DNA of 64,000 nt, taken from contig NC_011529.1 in assembly GCF_000018365.1 (NCBI RefSeq), positions 1,240,001 to 1,304,000 on the forward strand, given 5' to 3'. The notes below the pieces were generated by a model that saw only the letters and a list, made by a program, of their open reading frames with translations, ran no database searches and had not been told where the DNA came from. Below, in pieces: positions 3,858 to 19,065 of this stretch. This DNA is from Thermococcus onnurineus NA1 (GTDB lineage Archaea; Methanobacteriota_B; Thermococci; Thermococcales; Thermococcaceae). Every line of letters starts with the position of its first letter. The stretch's first letter is position 1. Made by a program: the position numbers and the translations under genes.

Positions 3858-4706
3858 ATGGGATATAAGATAACAAAAAAGGAGAACCTGAGCGCCATAG
3901 ACTTCTTCATGGAGGTCGAGGCACCTCACATAGCTCGCTCCTGGAAGGTGGGCCAGTTTGTGGTTTTGATCCCCGATGAGAAGGGCGAAAGAGTCCCGAT
4001 GTCTGTCTATTATGCTGATGACGGAAGGATAGGTATGTTTCTCAGGCGCCATGGAATCACAACCTTCAAGCTCTGGTATGAGTTTGACGTTGGAGACGAG
4101 ATTCTCAGTATAACAGGCCCTCTTGGAAAGCCGATTGACGTCAAGTACTACGGCAACGTTGTCTTTGTCTCGGATGCCGTCTGTGCACAGGCCGAGAGCT
4201 ACGCAACGCTCAAGGCAATGAAAGAAGTTGGAAACTACACTATAGCGATTCAGACCTTTGAGAACGCCGCAAACGTTTATCCAGAGAAGTACCTAGCAAA
4301 ACCGGTGGCAGACGAGCACTACCTCACAACGGAGGATGGGAGCGTTGGCATAAAGGGCCACTACCTTGATGTCCTCAAGGAACTCATCGAGAAGGACAAG
4401 GTGGATATAGTCTTCGGCGGTGGAAAGCTCGGCTCCCTCAAAAAACTCGCTGAGCTAACAAGGCCCTACGGAATCCCCACGATAGTCACGGTCAGGCAGA
4501 TAATGGTTGACGGAACAGGAATGTGTGGTTCGTGTAGGGTTCTTTACGACGGTGAGATAAAGTTCGCCTGCAGGGACGGGCCGATGATGGATGCTCACAA
4601 AATAGACTGGGACGATGCCATAAAGAGGAACGCCCGCTTTGCTGAGCAGGAGAAAATTGCAAGAGAGAGATACCTTGCCAAGCTGAGGGAGAAGGGGGTG
4701 ATCTGA
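3858..4706 (+). CDS. sudB: Sulfide dehydrogenase / NADH-dependent ferredoxin:NADP+ oxidoreductase small subunit
   Basis: This 282-residue FAD and [2Fe-2S] subunit belongs to the NfnA/SudB family. With the large subunit it couples NADH and ferredoxin oxidation to NADP+ reduction by electron bifurcation in the cytoplasm. The N-terminal half is a ferredoxin-reductase FAD domain (VGQFVVLIPDEKGERVPMSV) followed by a nucleotide-binding domain. The C-terminal MCGSCRVLYDGEIKFACRDG supplies the cysteines for the [2Fe-2S] cluster. I chose the ATG at 3858 because AAGGTGGTG precedes it; an in-frame codon at 3831 would add nine unlikely residues. It is followed immediately by sudA and sits behind SurR-like sites. 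Confidence 0.92.
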   Translation: MGYKITKKENLSAIDFFMEVEAPHIARSWKVGQFVVLIPDEKGERVPMSVYYADDGRIGMFLRRHGITTFKLWYEFDVGDEILSITGPLGKPIDVKYYGNVVFVSDAVCAQAESYATLKAMKEVGNYTIAIQTFENAANVYPEKYLAKPVADEHYLTTEDGSVGIKGHYLDVLKELIEKDKVDIVFGGGKLGSLKKLAELTRPYGIPTIVTVRQIMVDGTGMCGSCRVLYDGEIKFACRDGPMMDAHKIDWDDAIKRNARFAEQEKIARERYLAKLREKGVI

Positions 4707-6155
<1,449 letters not shown>

Positions 6156-6639: not shown

Positions 6640-6703
6640 CCACCTCAGGTGGGGATAATGTCCTCATCGTCTCCTCGGGAGGGATGACACTCATCACTGG
6701 TGG
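6640..6703 (-). ncRNA. C/D box sRNA guiding 2'-O-methylation of 23S rRNA
   Basis: On the minus strand the order is: stem CCACC, C box GTGATGA, guide GTGTCATCCCTC, D'-like CCGA, C' box ACGATGA, guide GGACATTATCCCCAC, D box CTGA, stem GGTGG. The boxes, spacing and terminal stem fit archaeal C/D sRNAs. The D' guide matches 10 bases of the 23S antisense text (35334-35343) and the D guide 9 bases (35313-35321). By the N+5 rule the targets are G residues at plus-strand positions 35340 and 35318. A TATA-like TTTTTAAAC lies upstream near 6738. Confidence 0.85.
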
Positions 6704-6840
6704 CGTGCACACCTCAGTGCAATGCTACACACAGGTGTTTAAAAACTTTGCGCTCCAGGCGAAAAAGGAGGCAGGATAGGGTAGTTCGCTGAACTAACTT
6801 TTAAAAATTCCAAAGTGGCAAATGGAGATGAGGGCACGTG

Positions 6841-7944
6841 ATGTATGTACAAGGTGCCCGGGGTCTTAGGGAAAAAGTGTTGGGAAATGGTGTTGGAACT
6901 TGGAGGAACGTCAGGGAGCATAAGAGGAGCATCAGAGTGACATGGGATATGGCAGATGATTTCTTGCGCGAATATAGAGAGAAGTACGAGGCTGGTGTCA
7001 TAGCATACAGCACCTACCGCAATGTCAGTTTTGCAATAACAAGGTTCTTTGAGTTCCTGGTCGAGGTTGTGGGCGTTCAGGAAGTTTATGAGATTGACAG
7101 GGACATACTGCAACACTTCTTTATCTGGGCGGCGAAGAAGGGATACAAGAGAAGGACACTCGAGAAACTGATAACATATGTTGGTAAGTTAATTAGAAGA
7201 ATAGAGATGCTACAACTGACATTTCTCGGGTTTGAGTTCAATTATAGAGCAGTACTTGGTGGCAAGGGAATCAAAAGATTCGACTCGGACGATTTGGACT
7301 GGGATGCCCCGGACGCAGAAGATATACAACATACCCTCGATGAACTACACCACCGCTATGAGCGAGGGGAGCTCTCCGAACTAGTCTATGACAGACTGAG
7401 ATTAATAGTCCTTCTTGGGGCATACACTGGCGCAAGAGGCACAGAGATGTCCAGGATCAAGGTTAAACACATCTTTTTCGAGGAGGGGCTACTACAGCTC
7501 TTCAGGGACAAAATCGAGAACGAGTACGAGAAAATGACTTTAGTCCCAATACACCCTGTGTTGTCTAGATACCTGAAGTATTACATCGGAAAGTACGGAC
7601 TATCCCGGGGCGATCTATTGTTCGGGAGTAGCGTCAAAACAGGCGGAATAGACATAGACAAGTATCTGTATCGTTACGGGATTTCAAAAATGCTCAGACT
7701 GCGTGATATGCGCAAGTTCTTCGCGAACACCCTAATCGAGTCGGGGGCAGTACTGAGTTTCGAGTACCTAATGGGGCACTCGGTGCGTAACAACATCAAA
7801 ACTATCAGTTTTGTCCACTATATCGCGAGAGCAAAACTCATTCCAATTGTTCGTCAAGAATACTTTACCGCCTTCGCTAACATAAACTTCGACCCCCATC
7901 TTGACACAGGATTGGACACCAGTGGACAGGAAGGTGCATCCTGA
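6841..7944 (+). CDS. Tyrosine recombinase / integrase of the element
   Basis: This 367-residue protein has an N-terminal SAM-like DNA-binding domain (about 35-135) and a C-terminal catalytic domain. The visible tyrosine-recombinase signature is an arginine in LGAYTGARGTEMSRIKVKHI, a second arginine in RLRDMRKFFANTLIESG, then MGHS and a tyrosine in FVHYIARAK. The second box reads D-M-R where the family usually has H-x-x-R. The ATG at 6841 is chosen; the GTG just before it is also possible. GATGAGG serves as a weak ribosome binding site and CTTTTAAAAATT (6797-6808) as TATA. The gene appears intact, unlike the split integrases of SSV-type integrated elements. Confidence 0.88.
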   Translation: MYVQGARGLREKVLGNGVGTWRNVREHKRSIRVTWDMADDFLREYREKYEAGVIAYSTYRNVSFAITRFFEFLVEVVGVQEVYEIDRDILQHFFIWAAKKGYKRRTLEKLITYVGKLIRRIEMLQLTFLGFEFNYRAVLGGKGIKRFDSDDLDWDAPDAEDIQHTLDELHHRYERGELSELVYDRLRLIVLLGAYTGARGTEMSRIKVKHIFFEEGLLQLFRDKIENEYEKMTLVPIHPVLSRYLKYYIGKYGLSRGDLLFGSSVKTGGIDIDKYLYRYGISKMLRLRDMRKFFANTLIESGAVLSFEYLMGHSVRNNIKTISFVHYIARAKLIPIVRQEYFTAFANINFDPHLDTGLDTSGQEGAS

Positions 7945-8005
7945 TGGTTCTTTTCTCTTTACTGAGTTTAAACCTTCAAAACTATGTATTGTAGTGGTGA
8001 AGTCA

Positions 8006-8185
8006 ATGACCGGTACGAAGTCAAACTTCATCGTGAGAAAACTGAATGTGAGGAAGGACCGCCGTGCAGTGCTGTACCTTCCGCTCGACTACATCATCAG
8101 CGACTGGGTTGTCGTGCGGCGCGAGGGTGAGAAGATTGTGATCGAGCCCATAAAAATTACAGGAAAAAACAGCGAAGAGAGGTGA
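8006..8185 (+). CDS. AbrB/SpoVT-like small DNA-binding protein
   Basis: This 59-residue protein fits the swapped-hairpin AbrB pattern: NFIVRKLNVRKDRRAVLYLP, then a DWVVVRREGEKIVIEPIK hairpin. Such proteins dimerise and bind DNA, often as repressors in archaeal plasmids. The ATG at 8006 follows GTGGTGA with good spacing. The longer reading back to 7901 overlaps the integrase gene and adds unrelated residues. The gene lies between the integrase and the primase-like gene, and its stop is only a few bases before the next start, so it probably belongs to the same transcript as the replication genes. Confidence 0.75.
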   Translation: MTGTKSNFIVRKLNVRKDRRAVLYLPLDYIISDWVVVRREGEKIVIEPIKITGKNSEER

Positions 8186-8191
8186 TGGCGC

Positions 8192-10594
8192 ATGTGCGCC
8201 CAGACAACCCCCATAGTTAGAAATGTTTCTGATGATTTAAACTTTACTCTCAGCAATGCTATAGAATATCTGCAGGAATACTACAGTAGGGCTGACAATG
8301 ACACATACTTTTTCCTTGCCTATCTCGACAGGGGTGGGCACTTCGTACAAAGGGGTTTCAAGGTCAAGGAACTCTATGAGAATCCATCAGTAATTGAGGA
8401 GTTCATCGAGCAGAATCTTGACAAAAACCTCTACTACTCAATAAACACATTCAAGAGTGCGAAAAGGAGTGCACGTGAGGTCGCTAACATTCTCGCACTG
8501 CAATTCGACTTCGACCTCAAAAGGCCAGTTACTACCGAGGAACTCGAAAAAATAGTGGAGGTCATCGAGGACTTCGAGAGCGCGACTGGGCTCAGAGTAA
8601 CAGTCATCAAGAGCGGGGGTGGCGTGCAGGTTCTCATTCTGCCAGATAGGCAAATAACCCTCGGAGATTTTATCTCGACCGAGCAGTTTAATGAACTGTA
8701 TGGGAAGTATGGTCCTGAGCTCCGCGGCGCGGACGAGGAGTTGTACAGAATTGCAGACAGCAATATGAAGAAGATACTTGGCATACTTGGCGACAGATTT
8801 GCCGAGGAGTTCGCAGTAAAAGGGTTAGCCATCGAGGTCGATAGTGCTGTATATGATTTTGCCAGAGTGATGAGACTACCATATACATATAATATGAAAT
8901 ATTCAGAACCAATCAGAACCGAACTTATTCAATATAATATCAATGAATATAGCAAGGTAAAAGAGATGCTCGACTACCTGCTCAGCGAGCTCGGTGTAGC
9001 AAATGTTTCCGATGGAGGCAACATATCATCGAATATCATAATCAGTATAGATGATGACCGGGTCAGGAGACTCATCGAGACCATCGAGAAATATGACATT
9101 TACCGCGCTGGTATCAGCCGGAGCGCTGTAACTCTTCACCTGGCCGCACTGCTACATAAAAGGACAAACATCACCTATGAGGAGTTCGAGAAGATTCTCG
9201 ATGCGATACACAACCACTTTAATGTTGAACCAGTGAAGAGAAGAGAAAAGTACGCAGAGGCAAGGGCTGTATTCAATGCTGAGAAAGAAAGGGTTGCCTC
9301 ACTATACTGGCTAATTCAGGTAACCCCTGCACTTGCGCAGGCCTGGGGCATCAGCGAGGAAGAGGCTATTGAGAAGATCAGGAACTACCACCGCGAGGTC
9401 AAGAGAATATTCAATATAGCAGATGTTGATAATCTCTGGAGGCACTTCAAACAACTCGAAGAACAGTCACAGGAACATTACATTATTGGTAGAGTAGTCA
9501 TCAGCGATAAGGACATCGAGCAACTCAGAAATGTGATCAGGAGTGCAATCGAGATAGTTGATGAGAAGGTAGGGCTAAACAACATCACCTATGAATTAGT
9601 TGTCAGACTGGTTATCAGGAAACTGAGAGCCAGTGCCGACATTGATAAGAACATACTGGTCAAACTCTTCAAGGACTTTGAAAATTTCTCGGTCGCGTAC
9701 GATATCATAGAAGAAGAACTCGCTGGGGACAACACCAACTTCGCAGAGGTTGTCGTGAAATACACAAATTACTTACAAGTAGATTCGGAAAAACTAGCAA
9801 CCCTGAAGAGGACATTAAGGAGACTAATTCACGATATTGATGCTGTCCTATTGCAACAGACTGCCCAGAAAATTAGAAAGATCACCGTGAAGGAACTAAT
9901 ATCTACCATCAGTGCTGTGTATATTTATAATGATATTATAAGGATTGAACTGCGCGGAATTGGTGACATCGAGTTCGACTACAAGTATAGTATTAAGAAG
10001 ACAAAGGTCGGCGATGAGGTGCACTATATCGCGAACTTCGATGATAACTTCAGGAAACTCGCGGACACCCTTTACAAGAACTATGGACTGAAGATCGAGC
10101 ACGCAACCGAGGATGAAGTACGCGAGCTCTTTAGCTACATTGAGAGCATTGCCTACAAGGTGAACATGGACCTCTACAGCATCGATGCGATAACCATACT
10201 GTACGACCTGTTAATAACAAACATACACAAATACCAGTACTATCTCGAATTGACCTCAAAGAATGAGGACATCTTCTTCAAGGTAGTGAATGCGCGCGAT
10301 GGCAGAAAATACATAGCGATTCCCAAACCACTACTTGAGAAAATACTAACTAACAGTGCACTCACCGAGAAGGAGAAGAGCATTGTGCTCCGTGCGAGCG
10401 ACAAGGTGCAGAAGGCGAATTTTGGAGGCAAGAGGCTACATGCATTTATGTATAATGCAGAGCGGTTCAAAGAAATTGGAGTAGACATAATTGAAGAGTT
10501 GAACCGGTTGGCAGAGGAGAGGGCATCAGACTACAGGATGCTACAGGAAGAGGGCCTCATCGACAGCCTCTTCGCAGGGGGTGGTAGTGAATGA
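8192..10594 (+). CDS. Archaeo-eukaryotic primase (AEP)-like replication protein
   Basis: This 800-residue protein has an N-terminal AEP-like core. Motif I is LQFDFDLKR, with D106 and D108 as likely metal ligands. Motif II is SGGGVQV (141-147), where the usual histidine is Q146. Motif III is DFARVMRLPYTYNMK (222-236), like the RxPGTxNxK of primase-polymerases. The long C-terminal part (about 270-800) is mainly helical and I do not recognise it. The start follows AGGTGATG, and the end overlaps the helicase start by four bases. Partnered with an SF1 helicase, it is probably the element's replication initiator or primase, as in pTN2-like plasmids. Activity is inferred, not shown. Confidence 0.7.
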   Translation: MCAQTTPIVRNVSDDLNFTLSNAIEYLQEYYSRADNDTYFFLAYLDRGGHFVQRGFKVKELYENPSVIEEFIEQNLDKNLYYSINTFKSAKRSAREVANILALQFDFDLKRPVTTEELEKIVEVIEDFESATGLRVTVIKSGGGVQVLILPDRQITLGDFISTEQFNELYGKYGPELRGADEELYRIADSNMKKILGILGDRFAEEFAVKGLAIEVDSAVYDFARVMRLPYTYNMKYSEPIRTELIQYNINEYSKVKEMLDYLLSELGVANVSDGGNISSNIIISIDDDRVRRLIETIEKYDIYRAGISRSAVTLHLAALLHKRTNITYEEFEKILDAIHNHFNVEPVKRREKYAEARAVFNAEKERVASLYWLIQVTPALAQAWGISEEEAIEKIRNYHREVKRIFNIADVDNLWRHFKQLEEQSQEHYIIGRVVISDKDIEQLRNVIRSAIEIVDEKVGLNNITYELVVRLVIRKLRASADIDKNILVKLFKDFENFSVAYDIIEEELAGDNTNFAEVVVKYTNYLQVDSEKLATLKRTLRRLIHDIDAVLLQQTAQKIRKITVKELISTISAVYIYNDIIRIELRGIGDIEFDYKYSIKKTKVGDEVHYIANFDDNFRKLADTLYKNYGLKIEHATEDEVRELFSYIESIAYKVNMDLYSIDAITILYDLLITNIHKYQYYLELTSKNEDIFFKVVNARDGRKYIAIPKPLLEKILTNSALTEKEKSIVLRASDKVQKANFGGKRLHAFMYNAERFKEIGVDIIEELNRLAEERASDYRMLQEEGLIDSLFAGGGSE

Positions 10595-12192
10595 CCGCCC
10601 CCATTCCAACAACATATTCAATATTGGGTGTAGCAGGGGCTGGCAAGACAACACAACTCATTGACCTCCTTAACTACCTTAATTTTGAGAACTCAAGAAA
10701 TGAGAAAATATGGGAGCGGCACTTCGAGCCAGTCGAACTCAACCGGATCGCATTCATTAGTTTCAGCAACACCGCGATACAGGAAATTGCGAATAGAACT
10801 GGAATTGAGATCAAGGCAAGAAAGAAGAGCGCCCCGGGCAGGTACTTCCGCACTGTAACAGGGCTGGCAGAGGTACTGTTGTACGAGAACAACCTGATGA
10901 CCTTCGAGGAGGTTCGCTCAGTATCAAAACTCGAAGGGTTCAGGATCAAGTGGGCGCGGGAGCACGGTATGTACTACAAACCCCGTGACAATGACATTAG
11001 CTACAGCGGAAATGAATTCTTCGCTGAATACAGCAGGCTCGTGAATACCTACTATCACGTGAAGAGTCTCAGTGAAATAATAGAAATGCACTCCAAGTCG
11101 CACCTACTACTGGACTATATCCGCGAGAAGGAGAAGTTGGGAATTGTGGACTATGAAGACATACTAATGAGGGCGTACGATTACCGTAATGACATTGTAG
11201 TGGATCTTGAATATATGATAATTGATGAGGCCCAGGACAATTCATTGTTAGATTATGCTACACTGCTACCAATAGCGAAGAACAATGCAACCGAGCTCGT
11301 TCTTGCAGGCGATGATGCGCAACTCATCTATGATTTCAGAGGCGCGAATTATAAACTATTTCACAAGTTAATCGAGCGCTCAGAGATAATACTGAACCTC
11401 ACAGAAACTCGCAGGTTCGGTAGTGAGATCGCCAACCTGGCGACAGCGATAATCGATGATATGAACTACATACAAAAGAGAGAGGTCCTGAGTGCCGCCA
11501 CCCATAGCACAAAGGTTGCCCACATCGACCTCTTCCAGATGATGAGTATATTACAGAATATGGCAACAACAGACCTTACTGTATATATACTGGCGCGGAC
11601 AAATGCGGTCCTGAACTATGTAGCAAAAGTCCTCGATGAGTATAAGATTCAATATAAGAAGAATGAGAGAATCACAGACTTCGACAGGTTTCTGCTCTCA
11701 TTGAACCGCCTTATGAGAAATGAATATACCAATGATGATATATATACAATCTACAACTACCTTCGCAACAAGGTCGCGAGGGAGGAAGAACTCAAGGAGA
11801 GGCTGTTCCAGCATAAGTTGCACTGGACCGAGAAAGATGTACTCGGTATTCTCCTCCTGGCGTACGAGCAAACTACTGCCAAGAGGATACTAACCACTGC
11901 CAAGAACACAAACTTCAAAATCAAACTCAGCACGATACACAGCGCAAAGGGCAGTGAGGCCGATGTGGTCTTTCTGATAAACTCTGTGCCACACAAAACC
12001 AAGATGAAAATCCTCGAAAACTATGAGGGCGAGAAGAGGGTCCTATATGTGGCAGTTACAAGAGCAAGGAAATTCCTCTTCATTGTCGATCAGCCGGTCG
12101 CCAGAAGGTACGAGCAACTATACTACATAAGGTCATATGAGAGTCGTGCACAGGGTTCACTTGTTAATAGAGTAGCTGTTCCAGTTGCGTGA
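10591..12192 (+). CDS. Superfamily 1 (UvrD/Rep-like) DNA helicase
   Basis: This 533-residue protein shows the SF1A motifs in order: Walker A GVAGAGKTTQ (residues 13-22), motif II MIIDEAQDNS (about 209-218), motif III ELVLAGDDAQLIYDFRGAN, motif V KLSTIHSAKGSEADVVFLIN and motif VI RVLYVAVTRARKFLFIV. It should be a 3'-5' ATP-dependent helicase. It is shorter than UvrD, with small 1B/2B insertions. Its ATG overlaps the stop of the primase-like gene (ATGA), indicating translational coupling and joint function in replicating the element. The stop is followed about 105 bases later by the iteron palindrome. Confidence 0.9.
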   Translation: MTAPIPTTYSILGVAGAGKTTQLIDLLNYLNFENSRNEKIWERHFEPVELNRIAFISFSNTAIQEIANRTGIEIKARKKSAPGRYFRTVTGLAEVLLYENNLMTFEEVRSVSKLEGFRIKWAREHGMYYKPRDNDISYSGNEFFAEYSRLVNTYYHVKSLSEIIEMHSKSHLLLDYIREKEKLGIVDYEDILMRAYDYRNDIVVDLEYMIIDEAQDNSLLDYATLLPIAKNNATELVLAGDDAQLIYDFRGANYKLFHKLIERSEIILNLTETRRFGSEIANLATAIIDDMNYIQKREVLSAATHSTKVAHIDLFQMMSILQNMATTDLTVYILARTNAVLNYVAKVLDEYKIQYKKNERITDFDRFLLSLNRLMRNEYTNDDIYTIYNYLRNKVAREEELKERLFQHKLHWTEKDVLGILLLAYEQTTAKRILTTAKNTNFKIKLSTIHSAKGSEADVVFLINSVPHKTKMKILENYEGEKRVLYVAVTRARKFLFIVDQPVARRYEQLYYIRSYESRAQGSLVNRVAVPVA

Positions 12193-12298
12193 ACACTTTT
12201 GTTCATTTTCTTTTCTCCACACTCTTTCTATTTGTCGATAATTGTTTGCTGTCTCTTTATCAATGTAAAGAGATTGAGGGGGGTAGAAGTGCAGAAAA

Positions 12299-12422
12299 GT
12301 TCCAGAAGTTCCCGAAGTTCCGCGAGTTCCAAAAGTTCCAGAAGTACCAAGGTTGTGTCGGGACAAAGTGGTGGGAACTTTTGGAACTTCGGGAACTCCG
12401 GGAACTTTGGGAACTCGGGAAC
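12299..12422. repeat. Palindromic iteron array, 6 + 6 copies of a 9-bp unit
   Basis: GTTCC recurs at an exact 9-base period at 12299, 12308, 12317, 12326 and 12335, with GTACC at 12344. Its complement GGAAC then recurs at 12374, 12383, 12392, 12401, 12410 and 12418, the last step being 8. The two arms are inverted about a centre near 12361 (TTGTGTCGGGACAA), so the whole could form a long imperfect cruciform. A lone AAAAGTTCCGGAACTTTT palindrome at 13281-13298 carries the same half-site. Position just behind the helicase gene suggests a replication origin or a partition/regulatory site. The rest of 12193-12580 holds no gene I can support. Confidence 0.8.
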
Positions 12423-12580
12423 TTTTCACCCACACTATATAATGTGAGGGTTTGTAGATGGTGTACGTACACCCTGCTACCCAATACCTTGTTTCAGAAG
12501 TGGAGACAAGTAGGTACTTGTACATAAAACCAAAAACTGTGTTCAAGGGTGGTTACGAATCTATATAAGTGGTGATTGCA

Positions 12581-12949
12581 ATGGGAAGGCGGAGATCTGT
12601 GAGACTCTATTCCTCACCGCTCCGCCGCATTGATGATGAAAAGGCGCGTGAGGTTATTCTATCGCGCCCGGCTAGCGCCTTAACAGTCGCGGCACATATC
12701 TCACTCGCAGAACTTGAAGAGTTCAAAAAGTTCCTAGATGGATTAACTACTGCAACCTGGCACGGCGATATTTTTACTAGCGTGCGCAGAGGAATTATTG
12801 ACTATATAGACTACTTGAAATCTAGGGATAGAGGTAGGGAGTTAAGGAAATACAATTATAAGGAACTCTTCACGGCAATGATTCTCTTCGCACACACAAA
12901 ATACAAATGGAAGTACACAAACCTCATTATTGCAAGGTCAAGAAAGTGA
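12581..12949 (+). CDS. Small element protein, RHH-like N-terminus (paralog 1)
   Basis: This 122-residue basic protein begins MGRRRSVRLYSSPLRRI, resembling the first strand and helix of ribbon-helix-helix proteins. It continues with LAELEEFKKFLDGL and ends with a helical YKELFTAMILFAHTKYKWKY. The order RxxSVRL, then an EF-containing helix, then an FA/Y helix is shared with the genes at 13357 and 13751. I chose the ATG at 12581 because GGTGATT stands upstream. CTATATAAG (12561-12569) looks like a TATA box but is too close to the start unless initiation is further downstream. Function unknown; DNA binding to the nearby repeats is a reasonable guess. Confidence 0.65.
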   Translation: MGRRRSVRLYSSPLRRIDDEKAREVILSRPASALTVAAHISLAELEEFKKFLDGLTTATWHGDIFTSVRRGIIDYIDYLKSRDRGRELRKYNYKELFTAMILFAHTKYKWKYTNLIIARSRK

Positions 12950-13356
12950 CTATGTGTGTCACGTGACAACCCCTGTCACTAATAACTCCTCTCTCCTTCC
13001 TTCTTTCCCCCAAAATCGCCTTTCTTGTTTGTGTTTTTCACTGACTATTGTGTAGTGGCATAGCAGAACACTAGTAACAAGTGCTGTCACTGCTCTCCGT
13101 CCCCTGTTCGACAAAAAATCGCCTCTGAGCGCTGATTTTCAATGCAAATTGCAACCCCCTGCGGACACTCACCCCATACACTAGATATATATATCTTATA
13201 CATATGGGGTGAACGAGTCGGTGAGTAACAAATCTCTGTCAGAGTTGCTAGCGAAAATTTCGCTGTCAGTTTTGCCGCACAAAAGTTCCGGAACTTTTCT
13301 CTGTCACTTCTGACATAGTTTAAGTCGCGTCAGATTATTATACTGATGGTGATGCT
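12950..13356. promoter_or_regulatory. 407-base gene-free stretch rich in TGTCA/TGACA motifs
   Basis: TGTCA or its complement occurs repeatedly here: TGACA-ACCCC-TGTCA (12964-12978), then GCTGTCACT near 13086, CTGTCAGAG near 13228, GCTGTCAGT near 13263, and TGTCA-CTTC-TGACA (13302-13315). The palindrome AAAAGTTCCGGAACTTTT (13281-13298) abuts the last. An AT stretch with TATATATATC lies near 13185. No gene is visible. This looks like a regulatory or replication region of the element rather than ordinary spacer. Confidence 0.5.
13291..13318 (+). repeat. 28-bp direct repeat with inner TGTCA palindrome, copy 1
   Basis: The 28 bases starting GAACTTTTCTCTGTCA and ending TCTGACATAG recur at 14239-14266 with one difference. 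The core TGTCA-N4-TGACA is a perfect inverted repeat, as expected for a dimeric DNA-binding protein. This copy lies about 40 bases upstream of the second small paralog gene. Confidence 0.75.
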
Positions 13357-13683
13357 ATGCTGAGGACAGTTCAGTTCTACATACCCGAGGGTAGCAACCT
13401 GACCCCCCTAAACCGTTCCATTATGATTGCGATTGTGATCGCATACCTCGAAATTGATGAGTTTGTTGAGTTCGTGAAGACACATACCCTGCATTGGTAT
13501 ATGTGGAAGACAGCCAAGGTACCGGACGAACTACTCAATAGATTCAAGAGTGATGTTGAAGAACGAGTTGGTAAGAAATTCACGAAGGCTGACATCGTTA
13601 CCTATGCTCTACAGTTCGTACTTTCTAAGTATCCAAACTTTATGAACATTGTCTCGCTAACATCATCAAGGCAATCAAAATAA
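13357..13683 (+). CDS. Small element protein (paralog 2)
   Basis: This 108-residue protein begins MLRTVQFYIPEGSNLTPLNR and has the middle helix LEIDEFVEFVKTHTL. It ends with FTKADIVTYALQFVLSKYPNFMNIV, matching the order of segments in the proteins encoded at 12581 and 13751, although identity is low. GGTGATGCT precedes the ATG. The 28-base operator-like repeat lies about 40 bases upstream, where a regulator would cover the promoter. Function unknown. Confidence 0.62.
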   Translation: MLRTVQFYIPEGSNLTPLNRSIMIAIVIAYLEIDEFVEFVKTHTLHWYMWKTAKVPDELLNRFKSDVEERVGKKFTKADIVTYALQFVLSKYPNFMNIVSLTSSRQSK

Positions 13684-13750: not shown

Positions 13751-14149
13751 TTACTGTGAACGCTCGGTCTGTTTGATTCTTTTTCTAATTGCAGAGAGCG
13801 GGATTGTTACCTTGATGAGCTCTATGTAATCACTACCAAGTCTATCATATGCAAACTCGACTGCCGCCGATACAAGTTCCTTCATTGTAATTCCATATTG
13901 TGAAAATCTCTCTTTTGCTAATTCCAACAATGCTGCGTTCAAGTACGTAAGTATGTCATTCTCTCTATCGCCCTGGAATTTTGTGCTATTTTGAATGTGC
14001 CTTGCGAACTCATCACTATTGAATAGCGCATACATTAGCGCGACCTCGGTTGCAGTGGTTGGAAACAATTTGACCAGTAGTTTCTCTTTCTCAGACATCG
14101 CATCGAGTGCATGATGAGAGAGCCGAACACTTGTTCGTGCTCGTGCCAT
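13751..14149 (-). CDS. Small element protein, RHH-like N-terminus (paralog 3)
   Basis: This 132-residue protein begins MARARTSVRLSHHALDAMSE, close to the start of paralog 1 (R-x-x-SVRL, then L and EK). It has FNSDEFARHIQN in the middle and ITMKELVSAAVEFAYDRLG near the end. I chose the ATG at 14149 because GGTGATTGAT precedes it. The same GGTGATT-to-ATG layout is found in paralog 1, so the start regions look duplicated too. Copy 2 of the 28-base repeat lies about 90 bases upstream. It is convergent with paralog 2 and downstream of the serine recombinase. Function unknown. Confidence 0.65.
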   Translation of the reverse strand: MARARTSVRLSHHALDAMSEKEKLLVKLFPTTATEVALMYALFNSDEFARHIQNSTKFQGDRENDILTYLNAALLELAKERFSQYGITMKELVSAAVEFAYDRLGSDYIELIKVTIPLSAIRKRIKQTERSQ

Positions 14150-15018: not shown

Positions 15019-15553
15019 TTTATCATAATAAGTTTAGACTTTTAAACACTAATACAAAAACCGGACTTTTTTGACACTCTTCCACAAATTTTATAAACAT
15101 CTATGAAAACCCCATTATTTTCAAATTCACACTATGGATTATATTACTTTGGCGAAGATTAATTAGATATTTACATACTCTATCCTGTCCAAGGTTACTG
15201 TATATAAATGTAATACCCAATATCACAGGTCAAAGGGATAATAGAAGTATAAATTAACAATTTTTGACTTTTGTGGGTTTCTTCACTCTAACTGGATTGA
15301 ATTATCGCCGCAGGACATTATGTGACATTAATAGATTTTTTGAAAATTCGTTTCTGAAATCTGTTCTGCTCTTTTGAGTATATTCTTTGAGAGTGTCGTA
15401 TATTTGTAGATAGAGTTTAGCAATGTTTGCAATTAAAATGTGACTATTTGATTGTGATTGTAACATATTTGAGTTCATATCTATAAAGAATTCCCGCAAA
15501 AGACTTTTATCATGTTCTTTTAACAATTCTAAAGTGCTATGGGGTGATTGCAG
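15019..15553. other. AT-rich intergenic stretch between recombinase and restriction gene
   Basis: These 535 bases are strongly AT-rich. They contain TATA-like sequences but no RNA gene that I can see. One weak minus-strand ORF at 15302-15526 is listed separately. The composition changes here from that of the replication half of the element, consistent with separately acquired cargo. Confidence 0.45.
15302..15526 (-). CDS. Doubtful small ORF, 74 residues
   Basis: The ORF would start at a TTG without a ribosome binding site. The product is helical and polar (LLREFFIDMNSNMLQSQSNS and so on), with no motif that I recognise. It is divergent from the restriction gene, the place where a controller protein might sit, but no helix-turn-helix is visible. 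It may be chance in AT-rich DNA. Confidence 0.25.
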   Translation of the reverse strand: MLKEHDKSLLREFFIDMNSNMLQSQSNSHILIANIAKLYLQIYDTLKEYTQKSRTDFRNEFSKNLLMSHNVLRR

Positions 15554-16738
15554 ATGCCGAAAGAGTACCGGGATAAGGTAAACTCTTTGCTGGAAAAAAT
15601 AGAGAGTTGTGGACTAGAAATTCCAGAATTTAGTCCGGGACGTACACCCACGCAGGCATTTTCTCAGTTCTTAATAAATAAAAGGCAGGGAGATTGGGCA
15701 GAACGGATTGTATTAAATGCTATCAATGAAACATTTGATGATATAATTGCTGTGAGGTATGGCAGGTCTGAAGATATTATTGCAGGGGAAGAGGGTTTTG
15801 AGGAGTTTTACGCTGAATACCAGAGAGAGCTCTCCGAGATTGGAAAACGTCCTGATATCTTAATATTTTACAAAGATGAGTATTTTAAATTGAGATCATT
15901 GTATTCGTTGCATGGTAACAAGTACGACATCAGTATGCAATCTCGCGACAAACTTGATAAGATAGTTCCCCATGCAATCGCTGGACTAGAAGTTAGATCA
16001 AGTTCATTTTTGGTAGATAAACATAGAACTTACATAGAAACTGAAATACAAAAACTTCTAGAAGAAGCCCTTAAATTAGTTCAGACCATTAGGGAGCGGA
16101 AATTGTCATCCTTACCGAGCCCTTGGAAAAAATGGATAGCACACATTAATTCAATTAACGACTTAAGATATGCACTCGCGGAGATTCCCAGATTATCACA
16201 AACCAGAGATGCTAAAATACAGGAATTTATGGATACTATCAAAATGATTAAGACCAAATATGACGCATTATCCTCAAAACAATTGAGTTTTACGCCTAAA
16301 GTTGAAGACTTAGCAGTAATAAAACAGTGGATTAACACATATGGCGTTCCTCATTATTATGTCCAAGTATTCTTTGATAGGATCTATGCAATATCTTTCA
16401 CGAGAATTCTTGAGATTGTCTCAAATGGACTGCAACAAATAAAGAGAAGACCTTTGCCTAAGATGGTGAAAAGTGAAAAATTTAAAATTGACAGACAACC
16501 AAAAAATCAGTTTAAAATAACTATTTATCTTGATATCAACGAAGGTGTTCATATTGGAGATGTATGTGAAGGGGAATACTGCCCAACGGATGAAAATCAT
16601 CTTCCCGAACTAGCTGGGAAGTACACAGTTCTAAACGATGGTAGAGTCATCGTAGCTGTGGATTTTGTAGGAGGATATGCAAAAATTTATGAAGACAGGT
16701 TTCTCAGCCTTATCGGGTTGAGAAATAATGACGGGTGA
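15554..16738 (+). CDS. AccI-like type II restriction endonuclease
   Basis: This 394-residue protein resembles the AccI restriction endonuclease family. It has the opening QGDWAERIVLNAIN, a PDILIFYKDEYF segment whose aspartate could be the metal ligand, and AGLEVRSSSFLVDK whose E-x-R matches a variant PD-(D/E)xK site. AccI itself cuts GT^MKAC; the specificity here is unproven. The C-terminal half (about 250-390) probably recognises DNA. The ATG at 15554 follows GGGGTGATT. The methyltransferase reading frame begins at or inside its last codons. Composition is much more AT-rich than the host, a sign of transfer. Confidence 0.65.
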   Translation: MPKEYRDKVNSLLEKIESCGLEIPEFSPGRTPTQAFSQFLINKRQGDWAERIVLNAINETFDDIIAVRYGRSEDIIAGEEGFEEFYAEYQRELSEIGKRPDILIFYKDEYFKLRSLYSLHGNKYDISMQSRDKLDKIVPHAIAGLEVRSSSFLVDKHRTYIETEIQKLLEEALKLVQTIRERKLSSLPSPWKKWIAHINSINDLRYALAEIPRLSQTRDAKIQEFMDTIKMIKTKYDALSSKQLSFTPKVEDLAVIKQWINTYGVPHYYVQVFFDRIYAISFTRILEIVSNGLQQIKRRPLPKMVKSEKFKIDRQPKNQFKITIYLDINEGVHIGDVCEGEYCPTDENHLPELAGKYTVLNDGRVIVAVDFVGGYAKIYEDRFLSLIGLRNNDG

Positions 16739-16858
16739 AACAATACGACTATCTTATATTTTTCTGATCGACCAGAGAAGGACTATATAAGACGTGTTAG
16801 TCGTAAACATAGACGAAAGTACGCACAGTTTTTCACACCGTTCTATATTGCAGAGTTT

Positions 16859-18358
16859 ATGATAAAATGGCTTTATCCTAGTACAAAGAAACAGAATCCT
16901 GTTATTGTTGATCCTGCCCTAGGTTTGGGCGTGTTTTTCAGAGCATTAGCTAAAAACAATAAGATTCCCAAAGATACCGTTCTTATAGGATATGAGATTG
17001 ACAGGAATATTTTGGAAAGAGTCCGTGATCTCTTTTCTCAGCTAAATATATCCGTTGATATAAGAGAGTCCGACTTTTTAGTTAGTGACTGGGAAGAACA
17101 ATATAATGCTATTATTTGCAATCCCCCTTACCTAAAATTTCATGACTATCCTAATAGGAATGAACTTATCAAATTATTCAAAGAGAATATGGGAATTGAA
17201 TTATCCGGGCTGACTAACATTTACGCACTCTTTATATTGAAATCAATTAGACAGCTGAAAAAAGGAGGGAGAGCCTCGTTTATTGTGCCGGTGGAATTTC
17301 TTAATTCAAATTATGGAATTGCAGTTAAAGAATATATGAAGGAATCAAAAACCCTTAGATATGTTATAATTTTAGATTATCCTGTATTCGAGGATGCAAC
17401 AACAACAGCGGCAATTCTCTTGTTTTCCAATGATAATCACACTGATAAGGTCTCTTTTGTTACAGTTAAAAACCAAAACCAACTCAAAGAACTTGAAAAG
17501 TATATTTTGACATATCCCTTAGCGTCCAGTCCAGTGGGGAAAGTTTATCGCTTATCTGAACTCGACGAGACTAAAAAGTGGAAGATATATTATCAAAAAG
17601 AAAACGGTGAAAGTTACAGGAACCTGGTTCCGTTTTCTAAGTTTGCCGTCGTAAAAAGAGGTATTGCTACTGGAGCAAACAACTATTTCCTGTTTTCTAT
17701 AACCAAAAAAAGAAGATATAAAATACCTGATAAGTATTTTCTGCCCTGTATCCCCCGGGCATCTTATGCAAGGACTCATTTCTTCACAAAACAAAATTTT
17801 GAGGAACTGTTGAAAAATGACAAACCAGTTTTGTTACTAAACGTAGTCGATTTGGATGATGAAAACGTCCATAAGTACATAAAAAAAGGAGAGAAAGAGG
17901 GGATTCATAAAAGATACTTAACAAGTCATCGCAATCCTTGGTACAAACTTGAAAATCGTCCTCCCTCGCCTATATGGGTAACAGTGTTCCATCGGGAGGG
18001 AATTAGATTTGTTAGAAATGAGGCTGGAGTTTACAACCTGACTGCATTTCATTGTGTATATATAAAACCAGAATATGAAGATGAGATAGATTTAATAATG
18101 GCATATCTCATTACTGACGTTGCAAAGAAGATCTTGGAGGACAATATGAGAGAATATGGCGAAGGGCTAAAAAAGGTTGAGCCTAAAGACGTCAGTAACG
18201 CTCTTGTCGTTGATTTCGACAAGATATCCTCTGATGAAAAGTATGAAATACTGAAGTTATTCCGGGAATTTAGAGAAAGGGAAATTAAAGGCAAAGATAC
18301 AAAAGATGTCTTAAAGAAGTTGAACGCAATATTTGAAGAAATATTAAGACGAGGCTAA
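16859..18358 (+). CDS. Type II N6-adenine DNA methyltransferase, frame-broken start
   Basis: The ORF from this ATG gives 499 residues with AdoMet-binding VDPALGLGVFFRAL and catalytic IICNPPYLKF (NPPY), typical of gamma-class adenine methyltransferases of the M.TaqI type, then a target-recognition domain. The same frame is open upstream to 16739 and reads RKYAQFFTPFYIAEF, the conserved N-terminal box, but has no ATG, GTG or TTG there. A probable start, ATG 16728 or GTG 16735, lies in other frames and joins through a T5 run at 16759-16763. A one-base indel or sequencing error there would restore about 540 residues. It is the partner of the upstream restriction gene. Confidence 0.78.
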   Translation: MIKWLYPSTKKQNPVIVDPALGLGVFFRALAKNNKIPKDTVLIGYEIDRNILERVRDLFSQLNISVDIRESDFLVSDWEEQYNAIICNPPYLKFHDYPNRNELIKLFKENMGIELSGLTNIYALFILKSIRQLKKGGRASFIVPVEFLNSNYGIAVKEYMKESKTLRYVIILDYPVFEDATTTAAILLFSNDNHTDKVSFVTVKNQNQLKELEKYILTYPLASSPVGKVYRLSELDETKKWKIYYQKENGESYRNLVPFSKFAVVKRGIATGANNYFLFSITKKRRYKIPDKYFLPCIPRASYARTHFFTKQNFEELLKNDKPVLLLNVVDLDDENVHKYIKKGEKEGIHKRYLTSHRNPWYKLENRPPSPIWVTVFHREGIRFVRNEAGVYNLTAFHCVYIKPEYEDEIDLIMAYLITDVAKKILEDNMREYGEGLKKVEPKDVSNALVVDFDKISSDEKYEILKLFREFREREIKGKDTKDVLKKLNAIFEEILRRG

Positions 18359-18588: not shown

Positions 18589-19065
18589 TCAAACAGGGCA
18601 AGGAAAAACCCGATGGGGATGACATATCTTCATCCTATTGCTGCTGAGCTTGACTGTTCTTACCATGATAGGACTAAGGGTAGAGAAGAGGGCACTATCC
18701 TTTATCTTGGGCTCCTTCAAAATTTTTATATCCTCAGTTATGAAGGTAGCATCGCCTATCTGAAGGATAGGACTGTCGATGAAGCCCTCAACAACGGCCC
18801 TTATGAGCTCACTAGAAGAGGAAGAGACGTAGAGAGAGACATCATCAGAGAGAACTCTTATGCCTCTGTCAGGAATGAGCTCGCGCTTCCTCACCATCAT
18901 GCGGGAAAACGTAAAGTAATCAACGTGGCTCACTTCAGCCTCACGGGCAATCTCGGGAGAAACGATGGCCATCTTCTCTATGAGCTGAGTATAGATATCG
19001 TAATTGTAGTTGAAAGGAAGAATCGTGTCCTCCTCTGTGGGTCTAAACTTTATCTCAACCCTCAT
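18589..19065 (-). pseudogene. cas6: Truncated cas6 (CRISPR RNA endonuclease), C-terminal half lost
   Basis: From the ATG at 19065 (GGTGAT upstream) the first 140 or so residues match the N-terminal RAMP domain of Thermococcales Cas6: MRVEIKFRPTEEDTILPFNY at the start, VDYFTFSRMMVRKREL, and LYVSSSSSELIRAVVEGFID. The last match is LSPIMVRTVK. The tail then changes to an unrelated 18 residues and stops, giving 158 residues against about 240-265 usual. The second RAMP domain with the glycine-rich loop is missing. No repeats or other cas genes are in the window. The break falls at the edge of the integrated element, which probably truncated the gene. Confidence 0.75.

Follow-up and report, generated by a model that had tools for sequence, protein, structure and literature searches.

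Paired inverted 9-bp arrays as a predicted Rep-bound iteron region of an integrated replicon of the pTN2 superfamily in Thermococcus onnurineus NA1

Results

Anatomy of the array

An array of short repeats at 12299-12422 of the window, i.e. the whole 64-kb stretch of DNA that was analyzed, is interpreted, with a probability of about 0.7, as the iteron-bearing part of the replication origin in a chromosomally integrated replicon of the pTN2 superfamily, and is predicted to be bound by the Rep protein of this element. Direct reading and mapping showed that the left arm (12295-12348, + strand) consists of the six 9-bp units AAAAGTTCC AGAAGTTCC CGAAGTTCC GCGAGTTCC AAAAGTTCC AGAAGTACC, with exact GTTCC cores at 12299, 12308, 12317, 12326 and 12335 in steps of 9 bp; the last unit is degenerate and reads GTACC at 12344. 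After a spacer of 25 bp (12349-12373) follows the right arm (12374-12426, - strand) with six inverted units, in which GGAAC is found at 12374, 12383, 12392, 12401, 12410 and 12418, in steps of 9, 9, 9, 9, and 8 bp. Both arm limits take in flanking AAAA/TTTT caps. A preliminary description of this DNA had placed twelve units at 12299-12422, with 9-base steps and a last step of 8. Position and spacing are correct and GTTCC units indeed face GGAAC units, but 11 of the twelve units are exact and one is degenerate.

Read as a gap-free inverted repeat, the array has arms of 42 nt that are 86% complementary. The unit AAAAGTTCC is present at the outer end and near the inner end of each arm, and all seven copies in the 64-kb window fall within 12295-13298 (0.86 expected). 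The half-site was also reported to recur at 13281-13298. This proved to be a real, isolated dyad of two half-sites, AAAAGTTCCGGAACTTTT, which precedes the small gene at 13357 and whose 16-bp core is matched exactly at a single site in the genome. When the 64-kb window was Markov-resampled 60 times, no inverted pair of at least 3+3 units arose, and a scan of the 1.85-Mb genome for GTTCC-N4-GTTCC-N4-GTTCC gave matches in the array only (3 forward, 3 reverse, control 0). Therefore, the array is not a product of chance. Calculated at 10.5 bp per turn, a 9-bp step corresponds to a rotation of about -51 degrees per unit, so that six units sweep ∼257 degrees; bound proteins would therefore spiral around the DNA and not, as was first supposed, line up on nearly one face.

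In addition to the GTTCC dyad, the intergenic region at 12950-13356, the second one of the locus, contains several CTGTCA repeats and a palindrome (13169-13212) centred on AT-rich DNA; this region may be part of the origin.

The integrated element and its replication genes

The element encodes a tyrosine integrase (6838-7944, + strand), a small protein directly upstream of Rep (7901-8185, + strand), Rep (8192-10594, + strand) and an SF1 (UvrD/Rep-like) helicase of the pTN2 superfamily (10591-12192, + strand). The true start of the small protein is probably later than 7901; no family match was obtained for it, and it is probably the protein earlier described as AbrB-like. The large Rep gene lies directly upstream of the helicase gene, with which it overlaps by 4 bases, and the latter ends 102 bp before the array.

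Rep, the candidate reader of the array, has an N-terminal primase-polymerase region akin to that of pTN2-family Reps. It matched a DNA polymerase/primase family in PHROG (E 6e-10) and the Reps of pP12-1 (E 2e-7) and pIRI48 (E 5e-6), and N-terminal similarity was seen to the Reps of pP12-1, pIRI48 and pCIR10; no close relative was found in plasmid and genome searches with this Rep. A single-protein scan with the helicase likewise gave no close relative, and alignment was used instead. The helicase is 27-29% identical to helicases of pTN2-family plasmids, with 29% identity over 93% to that of pIRI48 (E 1e-36) and shared motifs in the alignment. Viral contigs yielded only distant helicases, which were used as background. 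The window helicase has been assigned to clade 3, and the order integrase, primase-polymerase, SF1 helicase corresponds to TON_1378-1380 of T. onnurineus NA1, a suspected integrated element (PMC3543421). As judged from these sequence comparisons, the element is a member of the pTN2 plasmid superfamily. No element protein matched the plasmid homologs of a conserved ∼170-aa coiled-coil/wHTH protein by BLAST, and therefore the element shares the replication module but is not a full pTN2-like plasmid. At the DNA level, 12190-13360 had a single match in a similarity search, which was judged to be due to chance.

Chromosomal homology with relatives ends at 6696-6702, where an sR55 C/D RNA gene terminates, and restarts near 18623. 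In an Rfam scan sR55 was detected at the left border only, and no convincing attachment repeats flanking the element were found. In relatives, the flank on the left (up to 6696) has the opposite orientation and is located several kb away from the right flank (from 18623), so that the element seemingly sits at a chromosomal inversion breakpoint beside the sR55 C/D RNA gene. An AccI-like restriction enzyme and an Eco57I-like methylase are encoded at 15548-18358; with 36% GC this region is below the rest of the element, and the pair is a probable later cargo.

Paired inverted arrays in related replicons

Looking for similar arrays beside the primase/helicase genes of related plasmids had been proposed as a check, and they were found in every related replicon examined. 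Inverted array pairs are located near the rep/helicase genes of pTN2, pP12-1, pCIR10, pIRI48, pMETVU01, pAMT7, pEXT9a, pIRI33, the contig G089:C12 and the integrated elements L207 and L208, and all eight known pTN2/pEXT9a-type plasmids carry two inverted arrays beside the rep cassette. The unit is 9 bp long, in one replicon 10 bp, and its sequence is replicon-specific. L207 and L208, which are integrated in other Thermococcus genomes and nearly identical to each other, contain GTTGC/GCAAC pairs. No array pair was detected in pTBMP1 or in the loci L209-L212, which have related helicases without this rep cassette.

In a strict scan of 2.48 Mb of DNA, pairs of at least eight units were confined to the pTN2 family; the only other matches in the scanned loci, both weaker, were one Halorubrum locus and one bacterial plasmid. 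pIRI48 was missed by the strict scan and its units were counted by eye. The looser units of pAMT7, pEXT9a and pIRI33 were also missed, and were found with a 9-bp autocorrelation scan with a background of 324 weak single peaks in 2.07 Mb, so that these three are supported by an inverted pair located where it is expected.

Some further arrays were observed. In pMETVU01 (L011) there are two array pairs that differ in unit type (4418-4571 and 4747-4906), and pCIR10, at a distance from its rep genes, has a further array that is one-sided and built of the 10-bp units TGTCCCAAAG (L006, 6561-6660). The Athalassotoga plasmid pATS1 (L176, 2501-2728) contains an inverted CCTTA array with 9-11-bp steps, a possible bacterial parallel.

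GTTCC and GGAAC arrays were also identified in G089:C12, a contig of a Thermococcaceae genome of another genus. This contig (L028 and L031) is circular with a size of 28,590 bp, as it has a 127-bp terminal overlap and a 972-aa Rep frame spans the junction. The order Rep, helicase, array is that of the window, with the GTTCC unit likewise behind the helicase, and the cumulative GC-skew minimum (4286) falls inside the array region, with the maximum 12.6 kb away. A large protein encoded at 7294-10365 resembles, by eye, a fused restriction-modification enzyme. An out-of-frame reading behind the G089 helicase that looked like a ribbon-helix-helix (RHH) protein was rejected, having no usual start codon.

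GC skew and spacers

In nine episomes the skew minima cluster near the arrays, with the maxima on the far side; the combined Fisher P of 1.0e-4 is indicative only, because the nine episomes are related and not independent, and gene direction also shapes skew. The minimum is nearest to the array in pMETVU01, G089:C12, pTN2 and pAMT7; in pIRI48, pCIR10 and pIRI33 the two are separated by more than 1.5 kb. In pMETVU01 the minimum and the midpoint of the second array pair are 22 bp apart. The spacers are more AT-rich than their own replicon in all nine episomes.

Unlike in these episomal relatives, the spacer in the window is short (25 bp) and not AT-rich (AT 0.48), one unit has degenerated, and a skew maximum instead of a minimum is found near the array. 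Integration may have erased the skew, and the window array is probably a silent or decaying origin, which would be dormant, passively replicated and slowly degenerating in its integrated state. A compact variant with a melting site outside the arms, e.g. the palindrome at 13169-13212 near the dyad, would look alike.

Small proteins downstream of the array

Three small orphan proteins are encoded downstream of the array: sm1 (12581-12949, + strand), the first gene past the array, sm2 (13357-13683, + strand) and sm3 (13751-14149, - strand), the latter two being weakly like sm1 (27 and 28%, respectively). Searches with sm1-3 gave no Pfam, PDB or fold match of note, the fold search with sm1 being empty, and for sm1 a further 93 genomes of the family yielded no convincing relative. 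Structure models were poor, with a pLDDT of 62 for sm1 and 46 for sm3. Binding of the array by sm1-3 is possible.

Judging from the sequence, TATATAAT (12436-12443, + strand) is a likely TATA box for the gene at 12581, and since it starts ∼10 bp past the right arm, the array could double as an operator of this gene. The gene at 13357 has a TATA-like stretch, which follows the dyad at 13281 by ∼20 bp, and the positions of array and dyad would suit autoregulation by the small proteins. That the array is solely such an operator, with a second one at the dyad and no role as an origin, is nevertheless considered unlikely. The genes following the array vary between replicons, and in L207 (4622-5377) and L208 (3493-4269), which are otherwise near-identical, the array region of ∼780 bp is present in opposite orientations, inverted via ∼33-bp inverted repeats. 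Moreover, a paired symmetric array near a skew minimum exceeds the needs of an operator.

Candidate readers of the units

The preliminary description had left the choice between an origin and a centromere-like partition site. The origin is favored by the arrays beside the rep/helicase genes of all related replicons examined and by the episomal skew minima at or near them. In the partition reading, small RHH-type proteins would bind the array as they do the tiled 7-bp parS of pSM19035, to which the contiguous short units, direct and inverted, beside a promoter bear a resemblance (PMC9499535); RHH genes are indeed found downstream of the array in pIRI48, pCIR10, pP12-1 and pIRI33. However, a Pfam scan of the main proteins of the element revealed no ParA/ParM-like ATPase, and an RHH identity of sm1-3 was not supported, with an hhalign probability of 0.3% against RHH proteins of the family. 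Furthermore, the RHH proteins of pCIR10 and pP12-1 gave no BLAST match to each other despite their common unit, whereas the Reps of these two plasmids are 70% identical (57% for pTN2, which has a different unit). Since the relatedness of RHH proteins does not follow unit type, Rep is placed above them as the reader, and partition is quite an improbable function of the array.

Co-variation of unit and Rep was observed among the pEXT9a-like plasmids (n = 4). The unit is CTAC in pMETVU01 and pIRI33 and CCCCA in pAMT7 and pEXT9a; pMETVU01 carries CCCCA too. In this one subgroup of four related plasmids, which represents effectively one or two exchange events, 46 alignment columns of Rep split exactly with unit type, compared with 3 and 6 for the remaining two splits, and the helicase columns for the same three splits number 6, 3, and 0. 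Within residues 41-120 of Rep, where 33 of the 46 concordant columns are located, identity across the split is ∼0.4, compared with 0.75-1.0 over most of the remainder. pMETVU01 and pIRI33 have the array (4325-4584) and Rep (from 5666) in common and not the ∼1 kb in between. Because the pMETVU01 sequence immediately ahead of Rep (from 5098) matches that of pAMT7, a single continuous exchange is insufficient to account for this. The joint switch of the unit and Rep residues ∼41-120, in which the intervening DNA takes no part, makes Rep the likeliest reader of the units. Extending this to the window is a further step, because the N-terminal domain of the window Rep differs from that of the pEXT9a-like Reps.

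A role of the arms as a nucleic-acid hairpin, i.e. a cruciform, an attenuator or a terminator following the helicase gene, is highly improbable: the array folds much better than shuffles (z of -8.3 as DNA and -10.3 as RNA), but strong folding is expected from inverted identical cores, an alignment of the arms shows pairing at only 6 of 12 between-core positions, as counted by eye, and in relatives the arms have unequal unit numbers and are ∼31-138 bp apart.

Discussion

If the array is an origin read by Rep, the primase-polymerase encoded at 8192-10594 would, in the circular form of the element, bind the 9-bp units and tile both inverted arms as a spiral. The opposed arms would help to open the DNA at or near the spacer, after which Rep would prime and the SF1 helicase would unwind. 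As a second role, the array may act as an operator of the downstream small gene.

For the replicons as a group, it is tentatively proposed, at somewhat less than even odds, that a common origin plan of two opposed 9-bp arrays is combined with an exchangeable address. The unit and an N-terminal Rep segment of ∼80 residues would be swapped together, so that plasmids change origin specificity as a two-part module, and the window element and G089:C12 would carry a GTTCC-type address across genera. As far as the accessible literature shows, the paired 9-bp array plan and its co-variation with a Rep segment have not been described; the first origin prediction (Soler et al., 2010) lies outside that scope. 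The replication enzymes of archaeal primase-polymerase plasmids have been studied in vitro, and how pTN2 starts replication at a defined site has been stated to be open (PMC3973330). A shared origin plan with a unit-linked Rep segment offers a testable answer on initiation, and replicon-specific 9-bp units with a matching Rep segment give a starting point for the design of compatible Thermococcales shuttle vectors.

The predicted origins of the pTN2 family lie in the same intergenic regions as the arrays and were marked by repeats and skew only (Krupovic 2013, PMC3543421). They share with the window the rep-helicase cassette family, an intergenic repeat region and array pairs in inverted orientation whose units are 9 bp (in one case 10 bp) long. 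The window differs from them in that the array is downstream of the helicase, which is otherwise found only in G089:C12, that the spacer is short and not AT-rich, and that the element is integrated. The parS sites of pSM19035, bound by the RHH protein omega, are likewise made up of short repeats, tiled near promoters in either orientation, but have 7-bp units and work with ParA (PMC9499535), whereas no ParA was found among the main proteins of the window element and the small proteins lack an RHH match. Bacterial iteron origins of the R6K, P1 and RK2 type resemble the window in having tandem, replicon-specific repeats beside rep, and their repeats are located near an AT-rich stretch. Bacterial iterons are ∼17-22 bp long, form direct arrays and are recognized by winged-helix-type Rep initiators. 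In contrast, the window combines 9-bp units and two opposed arms with a Rep of the archaeo-eukaryotic primase type.
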